Of a stretch of DNA of 28,501 nucleotides, positions 18,578 to 28,501 are shown in pieces. Origin of the DNA: a virus; IMG/VR virus record IMGVR_UViG_3300009593_000089, positions 1-28,501 of that record, one strand, 5' to 3'. Positions within the stretch are counted from its first letter, which is position 1. Each line of letters starts with the position of its first letter. The notes below the pieces were generated by a model that saw nothing but the letters and a program-made list of their open reading frames with translations, had not been told where the DNA came from and ran no database searches. The position numbers and the translations under genes were made by a program.

Positions 18578-20017
18578 ATGGGAGCTATTATAGAAGTAAA
18601 ATACTTTAATTCTTTTCTTTTGAAAAAGACTTATGACTCAGCAACAAGCGCGCCGGGTTGGAATGGTTCTTTTGGTGTACCTACAGGAGTTGATGGTCAT
18701 TATCCAGTTTTTGCTACGTCAGTAAATGCAGATAGTTGGGTTATAGAAGAGGCGAGAATAAGGGGTGGTTATAATAATACTAACGTAGACTACGGGGTTA
18801 AAGCTTATTTAGTAGAAGATGAACCTAATTCTTCTGTGAGATCAAATGCTATGATTTATTCAGGTATTTTTAACTCACGAACTGGTATAAACAATTCAAA
18901 TGTTTTCTCCGTGGGTACTGATATCACAAAAGCTGCTGATCCAATCAACGGTTCTATCCAAAAATTATATGCTGAAGATACAGCATTGATTATTTTCCAA
19001 CAAGATAAAGTTAGTAGAGCACCTATAGATAAAGATGTTATTTATAATGCTGAAGGTGGAGGAAGTTTATCAGCTTCTAATATGGTTATAGGTGATATAA
19101 TTCCTTATGCAGGTGAATATGGTATTAGTAATAATCCAGAAAGTTTTGCAGTATATGGATATCAAAAATATTTTACTGATAAAAATAGAAATGCAGTATT
19201 AAGATTATCTAGAGATGGTATAACAGAAATAGCTAATTACGGAATGATTGATTATTTTAGAGATCAATTTGGTGTATTAGATAGTACAACTTGGGGTGCG
19301 GGAAAAGCATTAGGGGCTTATGATATATATAATAAACAATATGTATTATCACTACAACAAAGTCCTAAAGCACATGATGGTACTATTAACCCTTCTCCTT
19401 CTACAGCTACATTAGTTTTTGACGAAAGAGTATTAGGTTGGACAAGTTTTTTCAACTATATACCAGATCAAATCTTCAGTTTACAAAGTAATTATTATAG
19501 CTTTAAAGATGGAGGGTTATGGAAACATTACGATACTACAACTATACCACCTAATAGAAATAATTTTTACGGAACCCAATACAATTCTTCTATACAATTT
19601 GTTTTTAATCCGGAGGTGAGTTTGTCTAAAGTATTTAAAACAGTTAACTACGAAGGTAGTAATGGTTGGGAGGTGAGTCAATTTGATGCCGCAAGATCTT
19701 TTGAATTAGTAGATTCTTGTAACACGGTGTTAAGTTATACTGATGGAGCTTATGACTCGGCTGGTAACACAGGAACCGCAGTGCTATTAGCTAATCAACC
19801 CGTACGTTATGCTGGTTTTGTTAAAAAAGAAGGAAAATACTTTGCAAACTTAGTAAATAATAGTACAGCAACGACAGGTGAAGTTATTTTTGGTAGCGCA
19901 ATGACTGGTGTTAAAGGTTATTATGCAACTGTCACAATAGAAACAGACGACACATCAAGATCTAATCCAGTAGAATTATTTGCTGTATCTTCAGATTTTG
20001 TAGAGTCATCATATTAA
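18578..20017 (+). CDS. Tail structural protein, probable partner of the stabilization protein
   Basis: This 479-residue beta-rich protein contains VIEEARIRGGYNNTNVDYGV (56-75) and YSGIFNSRTGINNSNVFSVG (91-110). It continues with GSIQKLYAEDTALIIFQQDK (121-140) and FTDKNRNAVLRLSRDGITEI (202-221). I recall these blocks from large tail proteins of crAss-like and marine phages, where they often seem to be joined to the MNKDLDDRL-type region carried here by the preceding gene. Several stop codons in the 30-base gap show that the two are separate genes. The repeated surface-type sequence suggests a tail hub, muzzle or nozzle component. No catalytic motif is apparent. Confidence 0.7.
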   Translation: MGAIIEVKYFNSFLLKKTYDSATSAPGWNGSFGVPTGVDGHYPVFATSVNADSWVIEEARIRGGYNNTNVDYGVKAYLVEDEPNSSVRSNAMIYSGIFNSRTGINNSNVFSVGTDITKAADPINGSIQKLYAEDTALIIFQQDKVSRAPIDKDVIYNAEGGGSLSASNMVIGDIIPYAGEYGISNNPESFAVYGYQKYFTDKNRNAVLRLSRDGITEIANYGMIDYFRDQFGVLDSTTWGAGKALGAYDIYNKQYVLSLQQSPKAHDGTINPSPSTATLVFDERVLGWTSFFNYIPDQIFSLQSNYYSFKDGGLWKHYDTTTIPPNRNNFYGTQYNSSIQFVFNPEVSLSKVFKTVNYEGSNGWEVSQFDAARSFELVDSCNTVLSYTDGAYDSAGNTGTAVLLANQPVRYAGFVKKEGKYFANLVNNSTATTGEVIFGSAMTGVKGYYATVTIETDDTSRSNPVELFAVSSDFVESSY

Positions 20018-20027
20018 ATTAAATTAA

Positions 20028-20429
20028 ATGAATACAAGAACATTAACTGAGTCTGATTATGAAATATTATCAGACTGGTGGAAAGCGTGGAATTGGCCCG
20101 TAATGGCAAAAGATATGTTACCGGATAATGGTACGGGTGGTATAATGATAGAGAATGAAGGTGAAAATATAGTAGCTGGATTTTTATACTGGAGCAATTC
20201 TAAAATGGTATGGCTTGACTGGATTATATCTAATCCTAATGCAGATAAAAAAATACGTAAACAAGCTATAGAACTGTTAATACTTACAGCAGAACAAATG
20301 GTTAAAGAAGCTGGGAGTAAATACATGATGTCTATAAGTAGGAGTAATAGCTTATTAAAAATACATGAAAAAATAGGGTGGAGTATAGATAAAACCCCAT
20401 CACACGAAATGATAAAAGTGATAATTTAA
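20028..20429 (+). CDS. GNAT-like acetyltransferase
   Basis: This 133-residue protein has the layout of a GNAT fold. It begins LTESDYEILSDWWKAWNWPV (6-25) and has GGIMIENEGENIVAGFLYWS (37-56), then a strand MVWLDWIISNP and a basic helix (KIRKQAIELLILTAEQMVKE). It closes with SNSLLKIHEKIGWSI (106-120). This fits the substrate-side helices, the acetyl-CoA-binding strand-helix and the C-terminal 'L-I-x-x-x-x-x-x-G-F' strand of the superfamily. The pyrophosphate-binding Q/RxxGxG/A loop is degenerate (NADKKIRKQAIEL), so acetyl-CoA binding is uncertain. I recall similar small proteins in the structural clusters of marine phages. The target could be a virion or host protein. A start ten bases after the tail gene and an end eleven bases before the next gene indicate co-transcription. 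Confidence 0.7.
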   Translation: MNTRTLTESDYEILSDWWKAWNWPVMAKDMLPDNGTGGIMIENEGENIVAGFLYWSNSKMVWLDWIISNPNADKKIRKQAIELLILTAEQMVKEAGSKYMMSISRSNSLLKIHEKIGWSIDKTPSHEMIKVII

Positions 20430-20440
20430 AATTAAAGGAT

Positions 20441-21214
20441 ATGGCAGTAATATCAGCAACAACAGCCTTAACGATTGGGGCAGTAGCCGCAGGAACAGCA
20501 GCAACCGCAGCCGTTGTTGGAGGCGCAGTACAATCAGGCCAAGAGCACAAATCAATGCGTAGGGCACGAGATGCAAAAGAAGCGGCGGCGTTTAAAGTAA
20601 AAGAATTACAAGATGCTAGACAAAAAATTATAAATCCTTATGCAGGTGTTACATCATTAGCTGACATGGCAACTGATCTAACCGGTATGATGAGTAACCC
20701 TTATGCTCAATTAGGGGTTGCTACACAAGCTGCTGAAATTCAAGCAGAAGAAGCTGATATATCATTAGCTAATACTTTAGACATGTTAAGAGCTACAGGA
20801 GCTAGCGCGGGTGGAGCAACTGCTTTAGCACAAGCTGCTTTAGCAAGTAAGTCTGGGGTAGCCGCTAGTATAGAACAACAAGAGGCTCGAAACGAACAAC
20901 TAAAAGCTCAAGGTGCTCAAAACTTAATGCAAGCACAAATAACAGAACAACAAAGGTTACAAGGTATTGCAATATCTGAAGGTCAAAGAGAACAAGCTGC
21001 AGATGCTCAAGGGAAATTATTTGAGTTTGAAGCACAAGAAGATAGAGATAACGCAGATATTGCTTATAATATATCTAAAGAAACTGGAGCTGCTCAAAGA
21101 GAAGATGCATCTAGACAAAGAAGAGATGCTGCTACTGCAGGAATATTTACTGGAATAGGTAATGTTGCTAGTGGGGTTGCAAGCTCTGCCTTTACCATGG
21201 GTATGGGAAAGTAG
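20441..21214 (+). CDS. Internal virion protein, Ala/Gln-rich; probable frameshift donor
   Basis: This 257-residue protein has a hydrophobic Ala-rich N-terminus (about 1-30) that could insert in a membrane. A conserved-looking block follows, with INPYAGVTSLADMATDLTGM (64-83), SNPYAQLGVATQAAEIQAEE (86-105) and ATGASAGGATALAQAALASK (118-137). Long Gln/Ala/Glu-rich helices follow (about 140-230). This resembles small pilot or internal virion proteins of short-tailed phages (T7 gp14-like in logic, not sequence). The zero frame ends ATG GGA AAG TAG. The slippery heptamer GGGAAAG (21205-21211) is in the right phase and is followed by a GC-rich hairpin. A -1 slip would extend the protein to 306 residues. 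Confidence 0.75.
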   Translation: MAVISATTALTIGAVAAGTAATAAVVGGAVQSGQEHKSMRRARDAKEAAAFKVKELQDARQKIINPYAGVTSLADMATDLTGMMSNPYAQLGVATQAAEIQAEEADISLANTLDMLRATGASAGGATALAQAALASKSGVAASIEQQEARNEQLKAQGAQNLMQAQITEQQRLQGIAISEGQREQAADAQGKLFEFEAQEDRDNADIAYNISKETGAAQREDASRQRRDAATAGIFTGIGNVASGVASSAFTMGMGK

Positions 21215-21231
21215 GTGCCGGAGGCGGCGCT
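21205..21231 (+). promoter_or_regulatory. Candidate -1 frameshift signal (slippery heptamer plus hairpin)
   Basis: G-GGA-AAG (21205-21211) is read in the zero frame of the upstream gene and fits X-XXY-YYZ. It is the same heptamer used for the lambda G/GT frameshift. The stop TAG follows at 21212-21214. A GC-rich hairpin lies at 21215-21230 (GTGCCG and CGGCGC around GAGG), in an otherwise AT-rich region. The spacer is only about three bases, shorter than usual. A longer outer pairing (GGGTAT at 21199-21204 with ATACCC at 21233-21238) is also possible. Confidence 0.6.
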
Positions 21232-21360
21232 AATACCCCCATGAGTTACAAGGATTGGTCTAGTAATGCAATGAATAAATCTGGAATGTATCAAGCAGGT
21301 TTAATGAAAAATGTAGATACAAGTAGAAAAGCTTATAGGGCATATAAAAAAACTTTTTAA
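21211..21360 (+). CDS. -1 frame extension (49 codons), possible trans-frame C-terminus
   Basis: Read in the -1 frame from 21211, this gives VGAGGGANTPMSYKDWSSNA and ends RKAYRAYKKTF before TAA at 21358-21360. The Gly-rich start looks like a linker and the basic tail is helix-like, so the frame appears coding. The first ATG is at 21241 (39 codons). It follows ggcgctaataccccc, unlike the A/T-rich leaders of every other gene here, and may be buried in secondary structure. Expression by frameshifting from the upstream gene therefore seems likelier than independent initiation. It is also possible that the two were one gene split by an indel or sequencing error. Confidence 0.55.
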   Translation, partial: VGAGGGANTPMSYKDWSSNAMNKSGMYQAGLMKNVDTSRKAYRAYKKTF

Positions 21361-21373
21361 ATAATAAAACAAT

Positions 21374-23056
21374 ATGGGATATAAAATACCAGGAGCAGAC
21401 TATACAATCTCTAATAAACTAGAAGTTAACCCAGGTGGACAAGGATTAACTTCACTTGGAAACATGTTTGCACAACTAGGTAACGCTTATGTAGCTAATC
21501 AAAAGAAAACTAATGAATTGAAACAATTAAAAAATGAATATAGGGTTTCAACTATGTTAGCTAATGATCAAATTGTCGATGGTTTATTACTAAAAGGAGA
21601 AGAACAAATTAAAGATAAAGGTATTTATGAACAGTGGTCTGCAGAAGTTATAAAAAGAGGGGAAGAAGCTACTCAAGCTCAAATAGATATACAGTTTGGA
21701 GATTTATCCCCCGAAGATGAAAAAGCTAAAAGAGAAATACTTACAAATTTTAGCAGGTATAATAACAAAAGTTTAACTACTATGGGTAGATATCTGGCGG
21801 ATGTAGAAGCATATAAAAAATCTAAATTAGATTCTAATAATACAGATACTGTAATAGGTGATATGGAAACCGGCGAACAACTTTTAAACACTATAACATT
21901 AGACGCAAGTTCAGGGGCAGATATTAATACTCTTTATGACGGAGCTACTTCTTCGCGAACACTTAAAGTTTCAGGTAATGACAATGTGTTGCATTCTAAA
22001 GTTAGTATTCCTGCTAACAGTTCGTTTATAACACATATGAAAGCACATCCTAAATTTAAAGATGTACTTAAAAATGGTATTGAAGCTGGTAATATAAAAC
22101 AAGATGAAAATGGTAATTATATTTTTGAAAGAGAGATAAACTTTAATGCCTACGAAGGTGAAGAAGGTTTTGATTTTGTTGTACCTATGGGTGAAAAATT
22201 AAATAGAGATGAAGTATTGCATGTTAGTGGGTTCACTGATAAAGATAATAATATTATGGATAAAGCGTTTGTTCATACAAACGTAGGGCAAGATCGAGAA
22301 GGAACTGAAGATGATACACCTATATTAACTTATGAAACTACTGAAAATTTAGCTAATAATAATGTAAGTATAAAATCACATGAAATTGTTGATATAAATA
22401 AACTTAACAATAGCGATGAATTCAATGCAATGATAAGTTCAGAAACTGCGACTTTATTAAGTGAAAATAGAACTGCAGTTATAGCAACTAACCTAGCTAA
22501 TAATTATGATGTTTCAGGTAAAGTTGTTATGGGGAATAAAACTTATGATTCTGTAAAAGATTTTTTAGATGGAGGTACGTTAGAACAGAAAAAAACTTGG
22601 ATTAATTTACAAATTAGAAATAATATACTAACTGGTAAAGAAGGAATATTTGGAGGAATGCAAGATCCCGCAACCAAAGGAGTAAGTTTAGTAAGAAAAA
22701 AAGTAGATTCTAAACTGCTTAAATATTTAAATGATAATAATGTTCTTAATGCTGCAGGTCAAACATATAGCGCGGGTGACGATGTGTATATGAGGGTAAC
22801 TAATGATGTAGAAAAAATTGTTAAAGATGATGGTCCTACTTTTGCTGAAAGAATGAGAGCTGGTTTAAAAGCAAAAAATCCAAACCTTGGATCACTGTTT
22901 GCTGTTCCGATAAAACCAAAAGGTTACGATCAACAAATAGTTTATTTTCCAGCAAAAGGTGAAGACCCAGCAGGTGTTTATAGAGTAGGCACAGACGGAA
23001 TGAAAGTTATAGGCGCACAAGCAATACCACCATCAAGTTTAGCATCACTCTTTTAA
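21374..23056 (+). CDS. Internal virion (cargo-type) protein
   Basis: This 560-residue protein has the N-terminus GADYTISNKLEVNPGGQGLT (7-26), then SLGNMFAQLGNAYVANQKKT (27-46) and a long charged helical region to about 165. The rest is mixed alpha/beta with no recognised enzyme motif. The segment order (PGG linker, LGNM-type helix, helical stalk) resembles large virion-internal proteins placed next to the giant protein genes in crAss-like phages. The hydrophobic N-terminal half-helix could help membrane contact. It lies between the frameshift-type internal protein and the giant gene, and so probably belongs to the ejectosome or capsid cargo. The function is inferred from position only. Confidence 0.6.
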   Translation: MGYKIPGADYTISNKLEVNPGGQGLTSLGNMFAQLGNAYVANQKKTNELKQLKNEYRVSTMLANDQIVDGLLLKGEEQIKDKGIYEQWSAEVIKRGEEATQAQIDIQFGDLSPEDEKAKREILTNFSRYNNKSLTTMGRYLADVEAYKKSKLDSNNTDTVIGDMETGEQLLNTITLDASSGADINTLYDGATSSRTLKVSGNDNVLHSKVSIPANSSFITHMKAHPKFKDVLKNGIEAGNIKQDENGNYIFEREINFNAYEGEEGFDFVVPMGEKLNRDEVLHVSGFTDKDNNIMDKAFVHTNVGQDREGTEDDTPILTYETTENLANNNVSIKSHEIVDINKLNNSDEFNAMISSETATLLSENRTAVIATNLANNYDVSGKVVMGNKTYDSVKDFLDGGTLEQKKTWINLQIRNNILTGKEGIFGGMQDPATKGVSLVRKKVDSKLLKYLNDNNVLNAAGQTYSAGDDVYMRVTNDVEKIVKDDGPTFAERMRAGLKAKNPNLGSLFAVPIKPKGYDQQIVYFPAKGEDPAGVYRVGTDGMKVIGAQAIPPSSLASLF

Positions 23057-23066
23057 AAAATAAAAT

Positions 23067-26000
23067 ATGGAAGTATATATATTAAATGGAGAAAAACTAA
23101 CTCTAGAACAACTCCAGGCTTTAGCTAATGAAGCAGGGCTTGGTTTAGAAGACTTTAAATATTTTAACAAAGTAGAAGTTAAACAAGTAAAGAAAGACCC
23201 CAATGCTCTGGATGCGGCTGCGGGAGAGGACACAGCATCCTTATCTTTGGAATCACAATTGGAAGCTTCGAATTCTCGTTATTCAAAAATAGTAAATAAT
23301 ATTAAAAAAGAATATAACGACAAGTATTCTAGCAATTATATAGATGGTGTTTCAAATCCTACCTCTAGTAAGTTTAACACGCAAAGACTAGAAGAAGCTA
23401 AAGTCAGAAAAGATTTAGAAACACAAATTATAGCTCGTAATAACGATCCTGACCAACTCACAACTTTAACTTTAGATCAAGCTATTGAAAATCCTGATAG
23501 AATTTTACATCAAAAAGAAGATGCTATTGTAAATTGGTTACGAAAAGAAGTACCTTTTTATGATCCTCAAGCTGGAGAAACCTGGGGTAACTCGGTTATG
23601 ATAGGTGATAAAGAAATAGATTTAGTAGAATTACTGGATCCTAGTAAAAGAAGAAAAAATGAAACTATTCAAATACTAAAAGAATTAAAAAATGCTAAAA
23701 AACTTAAAACTGATGATGAGATAATAGGTATTAGCGCTAGTAATTTAGGTAAAAGTATAGAAGAAAATTCCAAAAACGTTAATTCTGTAAATGCGTTATT
23801 AAAAGATAGTACTCCTTATGAATTAGAAAAAATAACAGATATAGTAGAAGTAGGGGAGGGAATGAATAGAGGTGAAGAAGAAGTTACTACATATAATGTT
23901 TTGAAAGACGGAGAAGTAATAGCAAACTTACCAGCAGGTGATTTAGATGATTTTTTCCAAAATAATATAACTAAAGAGGAGTTTAAGAAAATGCAAGAAA
24001 GATCTTTTAAAGCTTTGTCTACGATGGCGGCGATAATGGATGCTAAAAATCATCAAGATTTTGTAAAAATTAAAGATGATCCTGAAACTAGATTAGATTA
24101 TTTTGAAAATAATTTTGGAGATGATTTAATTAAAGAGTTAAAAGCAAATGGGAGTTTTTCTTCAGAAGAAATAGAGGCAATTAAAGATTACTTGTTACAA
24201 CAAAAAAAAGATACTACTTCTAAATTTGCTCGAGCTGGTATGTGGGGTTTTTATTCCAACAGTAAAGATATAGATCAATTAGCTACAAACTATAGTACAT
24301 TAGAAGGTTTAGATGATAGTTTAAGAGAGAAATTAATAAGGTCCGGAATTAACAACCAAGCTTTAGAAAATTTAGCATCACAAGGTATTAACGATTTAAT
24401 TTTTAATAAAATAAATCAAGGTCAAACAAGTCTTTTAGGGGATTTTTTATCGGAAACTAAACCAAAAGACTTATTACAACTAGCTAATTTTTATAATGAT
24501 CCAAACAATATTTATAAAATACTTCAAACAAAAGCTTTAAAAGAAGGTAAAACAATAGAACAATATTTAGGTGGAAATGTATTTAAAGATACAGATTTTA
24601 AATTAGATGAAGATGTATTAGAAATGTTTGAGAAAGGAGACATTGAAGAAACATATGAACTCGCTGGTGGTATGAAAAATACCTGGGATTTTATAGGAGA
24701 AAGATTACAGGAGGAAGATCAAAAAGCACAAGTTGAGCATATTAAGACTTTTTATGAACCTAAAATAAAAGAAATTGTAGAAACAATAAATAACATTGGG
24801 GAAGAATTACCTGATGGTTATACTATTGTCTCTTCTCCTACTAAAACTGGCCCTATATTATCCATCAGAGGAACAGAAAAAAATCCTAGCTCAGATAGGA
24901 TAGCTGATATAGAAACTTTATCTGGTAAATTAGCTAGTGCTCAAAGTACTTTTCATAATTTAGCTAGAGATAGAGAAGTTGCAATAGATGAATTAATTAC
25001 TAATTCTGAAGCTTTCTATGCTTCTTTAGCTGATAGAAAACAATATGATTATATAATTGATGCAGCGCATAGAGAATATGGTTTAGGGAATTTAATAGTT
25101 AAAGATGTTAATGATGCTTTTACTTCTACGTTTTTAGCTTTACCAACACTATTCGATTCAGAATGGGCAATTGGTAAACAAAAACAATTAAACGATAAAA
25201 ACAATTATTACAAAGAAATGACTGGTCCAGAGTTTAGTTTAGAATATATAACTAGAACTTTAGGCCAACAATCAGCTAATATAACATTAGCTATAGCTAC
25301 AGCAGGTGGAGGAAGCGCTTTAGGTTTAAGCAACGCAGCAGTTTCTAACGCTATTGGAATAGGTTTTGGGACAACTGCTGGTACACAAACGTTTAGAGAT
25401 TTAAACATACAGGTTGACGCTTATGATGAAGCCTTAAGACAAAAAGAAATATATAAAAAAGCATTTGCTAAAGGAGAAATAAGCGAGTATAATTATACTA
25501 TGGCCATGAGGGATATTGATAAGACTTTAGCCATGAAACGTTTGAATGATAATCAAATTTTAACAGCCTCATTTTCCAATGGTATAATAGAAGGTGTATT
25601 TACTAAATATTTAGGCACTGCACCAAACTCTATAAAACTTATAAAAGATTTTAGTACAGTTAATAGAAAACTTATAGCTGAACAATTATTCAAAGGTAAT
25701 TATTCTAAAGTTACTAATCTTATTGGTAAACCTTTAGCAATTAGAACTGGTTCGGAGGTGTTTGAAGAGTTAAGTATTTTTGGAGGACAACAAATTGTTA
25801 CAGAAGCCGGGATATTAGGTAGAGATATAGACGAAGGTGAATTTAAAAGTGGTTTAAATGAAACATTTTGGGCTACAGTAGTAACAGCTGGTTTATCACA
25901 AGGAACTGGTATTGCTTACAGTGGATTGAATGCTGTGGGTATAACTAAAGAATATGAAAAAGCTATTTCTAAAAGACGATTTAATATTAATGGTTTATCT

Positions 26001-28501
26001 AAAACTTTACAAGGTAAAACTTTTAAGAAGTTAAGTCCAGAGGTTCAAAAAGCTTTACTGTTTGACATTGGGGAGGAAATGAAGGAAATGGGGTTAGCTG
26101 TTGATCAAAACTCAATAGATCTTTTAAACCTTGGAGCTCCAGAAATCAATAGGTTAATTGGAACTCAAATGATTAAAAGAGACTTTTTAGTAAGTGAAGG
26201 TATAAATCCTTTCTTATCAAAAGCTCAAACCGATACAGCGATTGCGGCTAAGAAAAAAACAATGACAGCTCAGCAAGTGAAGGATTTTGATGGAGTTCTT
26301 AATAGTTTAGATACTCAAATAAATAATATAAAAGAAACTGCTACTAAAAATAATAATTATACTATTGCTAAAAATGCTTTAGGAAATTTATATAAAAGTT
26401 ATAATATTTCTTTAAAAAACGATACAGAATATGATAGTAAATCCCCTAAAGATAAACTAGTATATATAATTAATAAAGCCAGAACTGATTTTGAACAAGA
26501 TGCTATTAATAAAGCTAAGTCAAATCCTCGAATGGTTGAATGGGTTGATGGATTAAGGTTAAATAAGGAAGGTGAATTAACTACTGACAAAAGATTTAAA
26601 AAACTTACTAACGAACAGAAAGAAAATATATATCGTAATTGGGGGAAAAAACAAGCGTTAGATGCTTCAAGGGCTTTCGGTACCCAATTAAATGTTAACA
26701 GAAATGCTAAACAAATTTTAGGTGATGTAAAAAACGTTAAGGTAGAAGAATGGACCAATGATGATAAAGGTATTCAATTATTAATTGATACAGGATTAGA
26801 GGTAGGAACAGCAGAATTTGCAGACGCTTTAAATAAACTACAAGAAAATAAAACTTTTGGTCTTGTTTTTGGTAAAACTATTTTAACCCAAAACAAAGAA
26901 GGAATGGAAGCTGATTTAGCTAAAGGTGAATTAAGAGCTGGAACAGTTATTTTACATGAATTTAGCCATATAACGGATGATGCTAGGATGAAATCTCCAG
27001 AAGCTAAAGCTAAATACTTTAATAACTTATTTAAGGCAGCAGCTACTAGTGATAATAAAGCTTTAAATAGAATTCATAATGAAATTGTTTTAGATTTAAA
27101 TAATATATATGGAGAAATAAACAACGAAAACAAAGTTATTTGGGAAGATGAATATAGTAAATATCTACAAGAAAGATTATATGCTTATGAAGATGAAGTT
27201 CAAATAGAAAAAGATGATAATTTTCTTACTAGAGTTTTCAACGCCACTGATCCGGGTAATTTAAATACACCGGAAAAAGCTTTAAACTATTTAGCGGCTA
27301 ACAATGCTGCGTTTAGAAGTGGCAAACTTTCTAAAGAAACTATTAAAGCTATAGATGAATATAAAGGAAAAGATTTAAAACAATCGGAGAAAAACATAAA
27401 TGAATTAGCTATAGAATATAAAGAATTACCGGCTGATAAAAGAGCTAGTTTTATATTAGATACTGATTTTTATAGACAATATCTTAATACTGCTTTAGCA
27501 GCTATGGGTTTCAATATTGCAAAAGGAGATATAGCTACAGATCAAGCAGAAGGTTTTGCTGTTGATGCTTTTGACAGAGTAACTAGAAGTTATAAACCAG
27601 GAGAAGGTTCGTTTACTAACTGGATATATAAAACTATTGGTCGAGAAGGTAGTGCTAAAATAGGGGAAGAAATAGAAAGAAAGAAAAAGTTAGTACGCCA
27701 AAGCCAAGCTCAAGAACAAACTAGACTAGTTGCTAAAGAAACAGCAGAAGATGCTGTAAACTTAGAAGAAAGAAAAAAATCTGAAGGTAAGGGTAAATCT
27801 CTAGTAGATCCAAGAAAATTACCAGGAGTACCAACAAACATTGACAATCTTATAAAAGTTGATAAAAACGATGTTGTGATAAACCCTGAGTCTAGATCTT
27901 ATACTACAGATTTTAGAAGTATATCAGACAAGTATGGTTCTAAAGTGGCAGGTGAAATTTATGGGATAGATGCGGGTAAACTTAAAAAAGGTGCTGATCT
28001 TACGTATGCACAAAATAAAGTAGTTGATGGTAGAAAAGTAATTTCTGAAGCTGAAAGAATACAGGGTGATTATGCAAACATTCAAGATGCTAAAAAATTA
28101 ATTTCTTTATATCCTGAATTTAATATAAGTACACCTACAGCTGTAACAACAAAGCAAGGTCAAGAAACTAAAGTTGATAAAGACGTACAAGGAAGATCAT
28201 TGGGTATTGCTCCTAGTGTACAAAATTATTTTTATGAAGATTACATTGATCCTAAAGCTTTAAATAAAGAAACTAAAAAAGATGCTATAACAAATCCTAA
28301 AGGAAGATCTAAAGGTAGCACTAGTCAAACACAAGTAAGAAGATTAAAACCTGAATTTAGAGGAACTATATCTAATGAGACTATTAAAAAACTACAGAAA
28401 GACTTAGGTATAACAGGAAAAGGTGAATTTAATGTTCCACCAAAGGGTAAAGCGAGAACTGAATTTGGTAGACTGCTTATAGGTTTAGCAAACTTAAAAG
28501 G
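23067..28501 (+). CDS. Giant internal virion (polyvalent-type) protein, partial
   Basis: The frame from ATG 23067 stays open for at least 1811 codons and runs off the window. The N-terminus is acidic and helical. Two Gly/Ala-rich hydrophobic stretches (about 732-775 and 927-955) could enter the host membrane. A zincin motif, VILHEFSHITDDAR, has H1297, E1298 and H1301, with downstream ERLYAYEDEV as a source of a third acidic ligand. Residues about 1495-1530 contain AFDRVTRSYKPGEGSFTNWI, which looks like the sigma-70 region 2 helix-turn pattern 'A-x-x-x-x-D-x-x-x-G-x-F-x-x-W/Y'. The overall plan resembles large polyvalent proteins ejected with phage DNA. No phage RNA polymerase active-site motif (DxDGD type) is seen in the visible part. 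Confidence 0.75.
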   Translation, partial: MEVYILNGEKLTLEQLQALANEAGLGLEDFKYFNKVEVKQVKKDPNALDAAAGEDTASLSLESQLEASNSRYSKIVNNIKKEYNDKYSSNYIDGVSNPTSSKFNTQRLEEAKVRKDLETQIIARNNDPDQLTTLTLDQAIENPDRILHQKEDAIVNWLRKEVPFYDPQAGETWGNSVMIGDKEIDLVELLDPSKRRKNETIQILKELKNAKKLKTDDEIIGISASNLGKSIEENSKNVNSVNALLKDSTPYELEKITDIVEVGEGMNRGEEEVTTYNVLKDGEVIANLPAGDLDDFFQNNITKEEFKKMQERSFKALSTMAAIMDAKNHQDFVKIKDDPETRLDYFENNFGDDLIKELKANGSFSSEEIEAIKDYLLQQKKDTTSKFARAGMWGFYSNSKDIDQLATNYSTLEGLDDSLREKLIRSGINNQALENLASQGINDLIFNKINQGQTSLLGDFLSETKPKDLLQLANFYNDPNNIYKILQTKALKEGKTIEQYLGGNVFKDTDFKLDEDVLEMFEKGDIEETYELAGGMKNTWDFIGERLQEEDQKAQVEHIKTFYEPKIKEIVETINNIGEELPDGYTIVSSPTKTGPILSIRGTEKNPSSDRIADIETLSGKLASAQSTFHNLARDREVAIDELITNSEAFYASLADRKQYDYIIDAAHREYGLGNLIVKDVNDAFTSTFLALPTLFDSEWAIGKQKQLNDKNNYYKEMTGPEFSLEYITRTLGQQSANITLAIATAGGGSALGLSNAAVSNAIGIGFGTTAGTQTFRDLNIQVDAYDEALRQKEIYKKAFAKGEISEYNYTMAMRDIDKTLAMKRLNDNQILTASFSNGIIEGVFTKYLGTAPNSIKLIKDFSTVNRKLIAEQLFKGNYSKVTNLIGKPLAIRTGSEVFEELSIFGGQQIVTEAGILGRDIDEGEFKSGLNETFWATVVTAGLSQGTGIAYSGLNAVGITKEYEKAISKRRFNINGLSKTLQGKTFKKLSPEVQKALLFDIGEEMKEMGLAVDQNSIDLLNLGAPEINRLIGTQMIKRDFLVSEGINPFLSKAQTDTAIAAKKKTMTAQQVKDFDGVLNSLDTQINNIKETATKNNNYTIAKNALGNLYKSYNISLKNDTEYDSKSPKDKLVYIINKARTDFEQDAINKAKSNPRMVEWVDGLRLNKEGELTTDKRFKKLTNEQKENIYRNWGKKQALDASRAFGTQLNVNRNAKQILGDVKNVKVEEWTNDDKGIQLLIDTGLEVGTAEFADALNKLQENKTFGLVFGKTILTQNKEGMEADLAKGELRAGTVILHEFSHITDDARMKSPEAKAKYFNNLFKAAATSDNKALNRIHNEIVLDLNNIYGEINNENKVIWEDEYSKYLQERLYAYEDEVQIEKDDNFLTRVFNATDPGNLNTPEKALNYLAANNAAFRSGKLSKETIKAIDEYKGKDLKQSEKNINELAIEYKELPADKRASFILDTDFYRQYLNTALAAMGFNIAKGDIATDQAEGFAVDAFDRVTRSYKPGEGSFTNWIYKTIGREGSAKIGEEIERKKKLVRQSQAQEQTRLVAKETAEDAVNLEERKKSEGKGKSLVDPRKLPGVPTNIDNLIKVDKNDVVINPESRSYTTDFRSISDKYGSKVAGEIYGIDAGKLKKGADLTYAQNKVVDGRKVISEAERIQGDYANIQDAKKLISLYPEFNISTPTAVTTKQGQETKVDKDVQGRSLGIAPSVQNYFYEDYIDPKALNKETKKDAITNPKGRSKGSTSQTQVRRLKPEFRGTISNETIKKLQKDLGITGKGEFNVPPKGKARTEFGRLLIGLANLK

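Follow-up and report, generated by a model that had tools for sequence, protein, structure and literature searches.

A recurrent slippery heptamer suggests programmed −1 frameshifting in a putative ejection protein gene of an environmental phage family

The most familiar phage frameshifts are those of tail chaperones and capsids; the case described here would be family-wide and lie in a presumed ejection module. The G-GT site of lambda, where a low-level −1 slip takes place, is GGGAAAG. Read as G_GGA_AAG, this heptamer is reported to shift very readily in E. coli, and so does A_AAG when preceded by A_AA; it is also the g-t site of HCTV-5, and neither product of lambda G/GT is found in the mature virion, both serving tape-measure assembly (PMC5009743). 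Close parallels to the present case are the capsid frameshifts of T7/T3, A2, A118, PSA, and Privateer (PMC5009743, PMC7881722). Privateer uses GGGAAAG too, and its minor capsid form was found by mass spectrometry (PMC7881722). The Ig-like extensions of T3, A2, A118, and PSA are reached via −1, +1, or in-frame decoding, depending on the phage (PMC5009743). In Alteromonas virus H4/4, a putative −1 slippery site is annotated as joining the endolysin gene to an internal virion protein (PMC5658483). Within the open-licence literature surveyed, no frameshift was found in this type of gene with the layout described below, except for the H4/4 annotation. By term search, “internal virion” and “ejection” are absent from the PRFect paper (PMC10885494), and the word frameshift from the main text of the crAss001 structure paper.

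Judged by analogy, the locus reported here is one that works as T7 gene 10A/10B but on a different gene, and no sequence relation is claimed. As in T7 and in the phiEco32-like capsid frameshifts of Privateer and SU10, the predicted shift is −1, concerns a putative virion protein of a presumably short-tailed phage, and would yield a C-terminally extended minor form. However, in T7, Privateer, and SU10 the shifted gene is that of the major capsid protein, whereas the gene considered here takes the gp14 position of the presumed ejection module and encodes a small protein predicted to be helical. The tails of this family are mostly too short for an Ig domain and extend another gene, unlike the Ig-like extensions. 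A low-level −1 slip is common to lambda G-GT as well, but the counterpart of our gene in Cellulophaga phage phi38:1 is annotated as structural. In H4/4, a podovirus, the annotated putative −1 slippery site likewise concerns an internal virion protein. There, however, the internal protein is the downstream product in a genome-announcement prediction, whereas here it lies upstream and gains a short tail.

The window, by which we mean the whole stretch of viral DNA analysed (28,501 nt), has the following features at the site.

20441 to 21214, plus strand: zero-frame gene of 257 aa; its product, a putative internal/ejection protein, resembles T7 gp14 only in position and through weak fold similarity
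21205 to 21211, plus strand: slippery heptamer G GGA AAG, in phase G|GGA|AAG and seen again in relatives
21212 to 21214, plus strand: zero-frame stop TAG, immediately 3′ of the heptamer
21215 to 21230, plus strand: hairpin GTGCCG-GAGG-CGGCGC, a putative stimulator with six pairs (one G-U), 3 nt past the heptamer
21211 to 21360, plus strand: −1 frame tail, 49 codons (21211-21357) plus stop (21358-21360)

The final codons of the gene are ATG GGA AAG TAG. The original prediction had placed GGGAAAG in X-XXY-YYZ phase at a G GGA AAG TAG end, a six-pair hairpin right behind the stop, and a −1 frame open for 49 codons, and all three were found as described, at 21205-21211, 21215-21230, and 21211-21357, respectively. 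The ATG of the next gene, at 21374, stands 13 nt beyond the −1 stop. A second record (L001; L numbers denote loci throughout) is identical to the window except for three adjacent mismatches in 10,771 nt, and a −1 frame of this tail length was open in about 1% of shuffles of it. The heptamer itself is not rare, as GGGAAAG occurs once in the window and 3.08 copies are expected from shuffles. The case for a frameshift therefore rests on the phase of the heptamer, on its placement next to the stop, and on its reappearance in relatives. Two other interpretations of the site were considered and rejected. Readthrough of the TAG cannot produce a tail read in the −1 frame, and a zero-frame TGA lies nine codons past the TAG; a terminator role for the hairpin was discarded when a terminator scan reported none at that place. 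Rfam gave no match near the site.

Relatives were collected in six scans of viral contigs (best 80 loci per query) and one of genome contigs (two loci). Of the 390 loci that were read, five were discarded (four had no stop, and one was too short), and duplicates, defined by the same last 100 residues and the same 40 nt downstream, were collapsed, leaving 180. The zero-frame stop and the next gene were at most 50 nt apart in 135 of them (short gap) and more than 50 nt apart in 38 (long gap), and in seven the gap was unmeasurable. The 50-nt limit was chosen post hoc, after an initial table had been inspected, and these figures supersede an earlier motif-based pass (162 unique loci, 37 with long gaps). 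The sample is not random, as it holds the best 80 of at least 562-564 relatives per scan and the first query sequences (the window, L067, L088, L009, and L049) all carry the arrangement. For these reasons, 38 of 180 should not be taken as a prevalence.

A canonical in-phase heptamer was present within the last six codons in 28 of the 38 long-gap relatives vs 5 of the 135 short-gap ones (Fisher p 5e-19), and it abutted the stop in 20 of 38 vs none of 135 (p 4e-16), with one of the seven unmeasurable loci positive on either count. These p values are uncorrected for descent. By hand count, the 28 sites comprise 13 GGGAAAG, five GGGAAAT, two GGGAAAA, one GGGAAAC, three AAAAAAG, one AAAAAAC, and three GGGTTTC/T. 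The background in the interior of the same gene, over 36,787 codon boundaries, is 2.3% within six codons and 0.4% directly. Other same-strand open reading frames of these loci (about 120 codons or more) had a heptamer within six codons of the stop in 77 of 461 cases and directly at it in 11, these 11 heptamers consisting exclusively of A and T. Conservation of the heptamer with an extension in the −1 frame among homologous proteins had been named in advance as support for frameshifting, and both recur in the 28 long-gap relatives, many of them diverged. As a feature of the sequences, the observation is real and beyond chance.

Shared descent was addressed in two ways. In 19 independent pairs differing in gap, presence of the heptamer agreed with the gap in 12.7, opposed it in 0.1, and showed no difference in 6.2 (averages; median p 2e-4). 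For a FastTree phylogeny, clustering at 90% reduced 174 rows to 148 representatives, whereby L043, L371, and L253 were lost. A canonical −1 site is carried by 28 of the representatives; the −1 label requires 20 changes vs 25.8 when shuffled, and at least 16 of the 20 fall on well-supported branches. As reconstructed on this tree, the −1 arrangement is repeatedly gained or lost. Given that 135 of the 180 relatives have a short gap and lack the arrangement, the tail is dispensable in the family.

The tails themselves look like protein. Over 28 loci, the −1 frame stays open past the zero-frame stop for a mean of 32 codons, vs 9.5 for the +1 frame and 11 for the zero frame, and 25 of the 28 tails terminate 4-21 nt ahead of the next gene. 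Assuming independent loci, the product of the chances of open tails reaching the next gene is about 1e-25. Tails are 15-63 residues long; relative to the core, Pro, Thr, Ser, and Asn are abundant in them, whereas Ala and Gln are scarce. Homologous tails were found in the sets L037/L039, L256/L257, L009/L248/L253, L073/L088, L004/L027/L094, and L035/L049. When the tail of the window was searched alone, only the near-identical L001 contig matched; the window/L001 tail and that of L007 have their first 10 residues in common. A lack of extension homology was to have counted against frameshifting. Such homology exists among the tails of several relatives, but for the window's own tail it is limited to L001 and the 10-residue start shared with L007.

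The evidence on hairpins is more equivocal. The stretch past the heptamer was among the 5% most stable sampled segments of its locus at 18 of 28 sites vs none of 135 control stops, and at L001, whose site has the same letters as the window, none of the sampled segments of the locus was as stable. This comparison flatters the sites because the control stops lie in A/T-rich sequence (G+C 0.47 at sites and 0.25 at control stops, with 0.35 and 0.34 for the respective whole loci). Compared with same-letter shuffles, the mean z was −0.67 for sites vs +0.27 for controls, with four of 28 sites below −2; the window hairpin scored −0.62 and, separately, −1.63 for 61 nt. The z-scores are small because the stretch after the heptamer is G+C-rich. 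No outstanding hairpin was seen at 10 of the 28 sites, including L052, L094, and L300. A permissive, uncontrolled stem search returned a stem in 27 of 29 cases and was not counted as evidence. Stimulation of frameshifting by the hairpin is likely but not proved.

Taken together, we hold with high confidence that programmed −1 ribosomal frameshifting adds a variable tail to the putative gp14-like protein, in the absence of protein, reporter, or ribosome-profiling data. A programmed −1 frameshift extending this protein was the core of the original prediction, and the recurring heptamer with its extension and the fused relatives described below support it. Ribosomes ending the 257-aa protein would reach G GGA AAG, where the stop codon follows directly and a stable hairpin comes right behind it. 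A fraction would slip back one base on GGA AAG and read 49 more codons in the −1 frame, giving a predicted product of 306 aa, and the remaining ribosomes would terminate at the TAG, giving the short form. Two forms of the putative ejection protein would be made at a set ratio with the long form in the minority, and both would be incorporated into virions; ratio and incorporation are inferred. The most likely role we can infer for the flexible tail of the minority subunit is to make a lineage-specific contact with the host envelope or within the portal/tail. The Pro/Thr/Ser/Asn-rich, Ala/Gln-poor composition of the tails makes a flexible contact arm our best guess.

It could be argued that the slip does occur but yields only C-terminal noise, a relic of gene fission. 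This reading is compatible with the slip itself, and we regard it as unlikely without ruling it out. Most examined relatives lack the arrangement, and the tails change fast under modest constraint (over ten pairs with members in common, pS was 0.48 and pN 0.30, and in one pair pN exceeded pS). In addition, L018 and L020 seem, from comparison of their ends, to carry out-of-frame decayed versions of a C-terminus that is still in frame in L023. On the other hand, a mere relic would not be expected to recur at heptamers across the tree, to keep tails open as far as the next gene, or to reach similar tails by different solutions (−1, +1, and fused).

The +1 solution was found among the 10 long-gap relatives without a canonical heptamer, of which three have a +1 tail, three a −1 tail, and four (L020, L132, L167, and L273) no convincing tail. 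In L041, L043, and L105 the zero frame ends TTT GGG TAA and the +1 frame is open. Over 17 residues, the +1 tail of L041 shares 82% identity with the −1 tail of L052, to which the +1 tail of L043 is also homologous; that of L105 found no match in a tail-vs-tail search. L041 and L105 form one supported group within a clade that also contains L052, L067, and L094, and in this small clade a +1 frameshift apparently replaces the −1 one, to judge from the reading frames. L067, L203, and L371 have −1 tails partly like others at non-canonical sites.

Matching tails fused in frame also bear on whether an originally fused gene was split, either by an error in sequencing or assembly or by a one-base indel of natural origin. 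Fused single-frame homologs with a matching C-terminus had been named as support for frameshifting, and one clear pair was found: the −1 tail of L081 matches the in-frame C-terminus of L080 (81% over 16 aa). A second pair, L300 and L289, matches as well (86% over 22 aa), but its junctions, one split and one fused, are nearly identical and differ by one A in a run of nine or 10 A, so that this pair may reflect an indel or transcriptional slippage. A third match, L248 vs L227, is weak (47% over 30, E 0.002). For L300, the indel explanation is not excluded and stays open. As a general account it is very improbable, since 24 of the 28 splits occur at GGGAAAN or GGGTTTN in diverged contigs without a long homopolymer, the stop follows the heptamer directly in 20 of 28, and random events would not pick in-phase heptamers against a background of 2.3% or 0.4%. 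L001 agrees with the window, and a one-base error in the window itself is unlikely, as far as can be told from diverged contigs that share the arrangement at GGGAAAN without a long homopolymer.

There is also very little room for the tail being a separate small gene with its own start, translated by reinitiation past the stop. The window does offer a 39-codon open reading frame from the ATG at 21241, 26 nt past the zero-frame stop, and 11 of 29 −1 tails, that of the window included, contain an ATG. However, 18 of 29 lack one, and 18 of 29 lack any ATG, GTG, or TTG leaving ten codons (the overlap of the latter with the no-ATG set was not compared). The ATG at 21241 is preceded by TAATACCCCC, which is not purely A/T-rich, and the earlier remark that it lacks the usual A/T-rich leader is correct. 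Tail similarity begins at, or a few residues from, the slip site in L001/L007, L037/L039, and L009/L248/L253, and two relatives have the matching tail fused in frame. Slippage in transcription rather than translation as the source of the −1 product can be given hardly any weight: A-runs longer than 7 count as slippage sites in the GeneTack paper (PMC3711429) and four of 28 sites are in A-runs (three AAAAAAG, and the AAAAAAC of L300 within a 9-A run), but the other 24 are GGGAAAN or GGGTTTN without such a run, and a hairpin with an adjacent stop suits ribosomal frameshifting.

The genes around the frameshift gene are relevant to what its protein might be:

18578 to 20017, plus strand: gene with a crAss muzzle C-terminal domain (crAss_MUZ_C)
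20028 to 20429, plus strand: small gene just upstream of the frameshift gene (phrog_17252, function unknown)
21374 to 23056, plus strand: next gene, 560 aa, gp15-like by position only
23067 to 28499, plus strand: open gene, 1811+ aa, gp16-like by position only

The match of crAss_MUZ_C to the gene at 18578-20017 scored 54.6 bits (cut-off 27) and covers the C-terminal muzzle domain only. In the window this domain coexists with a terminase and a portal protein matching Flavobacterium elemo and Cellulophaga phages. Terminase and portal each matched 87 phage records (elemo, Cellulophaga, Tenacibaculum, and Maribacter phages and one unclassified phage). The label crAss-like in the original prediction is supported only in part: the muzzle domain agrees with it, but the matches of terminase and portal are to phages of Flavobacterium (elemo), Cellulophaga, Tenacibaculum, and Maribacter. 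The gene order in the window is that of the elemo and Cellulophaga phages. The small gene at 20028-20429 had no match in Pfam; its counterpart by position in MW202828 is annotated as an N-terminal acetyltransferase subunit, and in phi38:1 the same place is taken by a small structural gene, gp098.

In phi38:1 (Pervagoviridae), gp097-gp101 have an order similar to that of the window and are all annotated as structural by similarity to phi18:1. The counterpart of the frameshift gene, gp099, matched the family profile in hmmsearch (1.7e-7, among four sequences picked by position). This match is weakened by composition (15.7 bits of bias for a score of 18.9 bits), and hhalign gave a probability of 96. 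Among the four counterparts searched, only gp099 and, weakly, elemo gp20 passed the HMMER inclusion threshold. The counterparts by position in MW202828, elemo 6-3D, phi38:1, and phi19:3 all end in frame without a slippery stop. A tblastn search with the proteins of the window, L067, and L308 (185-aa part) found no match in 50,697 phage records, and PHROGs and Pfam gave no hit for the frameshift-gene protein. PDB sequences provided nothing usable (one designed protein, E 0.14).

The AlphaFold model of the protein is long-helical without strands (pLDDT 76.5, pTM 0.47), with residues 1-28 below pLDDT 50 and an N-terminus rich in Ala, Gly, and Val. PDB folds matched the model through long helices only (best E 3.4, Z 6.9). 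In BFVD, the top-ranked Foldseek match (E 4.7e-3) carries the name internal virion protein, as do five others that are not significant (E 1.9 to 7). Like T7 gp14 and the crAss001 cargo proteins, the protein has a helical model and its gene precedes two larger genes (560 and 1811+ aa in the window), but no significant sequence match was found. Our description of it as a putative internal/ejection protein resembling T7 gp14 is inferred from gene order and weak similarity. A major capsid gene of the T7 10A/10B type was also considered and rejected. The model consists of helices without strands and differs from the HK97-type capsid fold, the gene lies about 12 kb downstream of the portal gene, and in phi38:1 several proteins are structural, among them its counterpart gp099.

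The same site may serve as a docking point for an exchangeable C-terminal cassette, carried by a minority of ejection-protein copies and reached by −1, +1, or in-frame decoding, with different phages inserting unrelated short tails at this one place and recoding setting the dose of a fast-evolving tail through which the ejection machinery would be adapted to the host envelope or to a partner protein. We offer this only tentatively, as a possibility short of an expectation. The cores of L002 and L004 are 87% identical, yet the tail of L004 matches those of L027 and L094, whereas the tail of L002 matches those of L041, L043, and L052. In the core, L027, L094, L041, and L052 share only 53-57% identity with L002 and L004. 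Tail similarity that does not always track the core would fit cassette exchange, as inferred from these comparisons, but retained old variants or quick divergence would also explain it.

If programmed frameshifting is true, the dosage of the C-terminus of an internal protein would be under selection. Ordinary gene calling would clip this protein in many environmental genomes. Cultured relatives of this environmental phage family infect Bacteroidota, in which translation initiation differs from that of E. coli, and the family would supply a set of frameshift sites from phages with likely Bacteroidota hosts. In addition, relatives of one gene with a −1, a +1, a fused, or no tail would form a natural series. 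Among distant relatives, a different in-frame C-terminus, of which L018 and L020 may keep out-of-frame remnants, ends in ..DVEFKKI, or close to it, and recurs in L023, L038, L051, L089, L108, L350, and L389.
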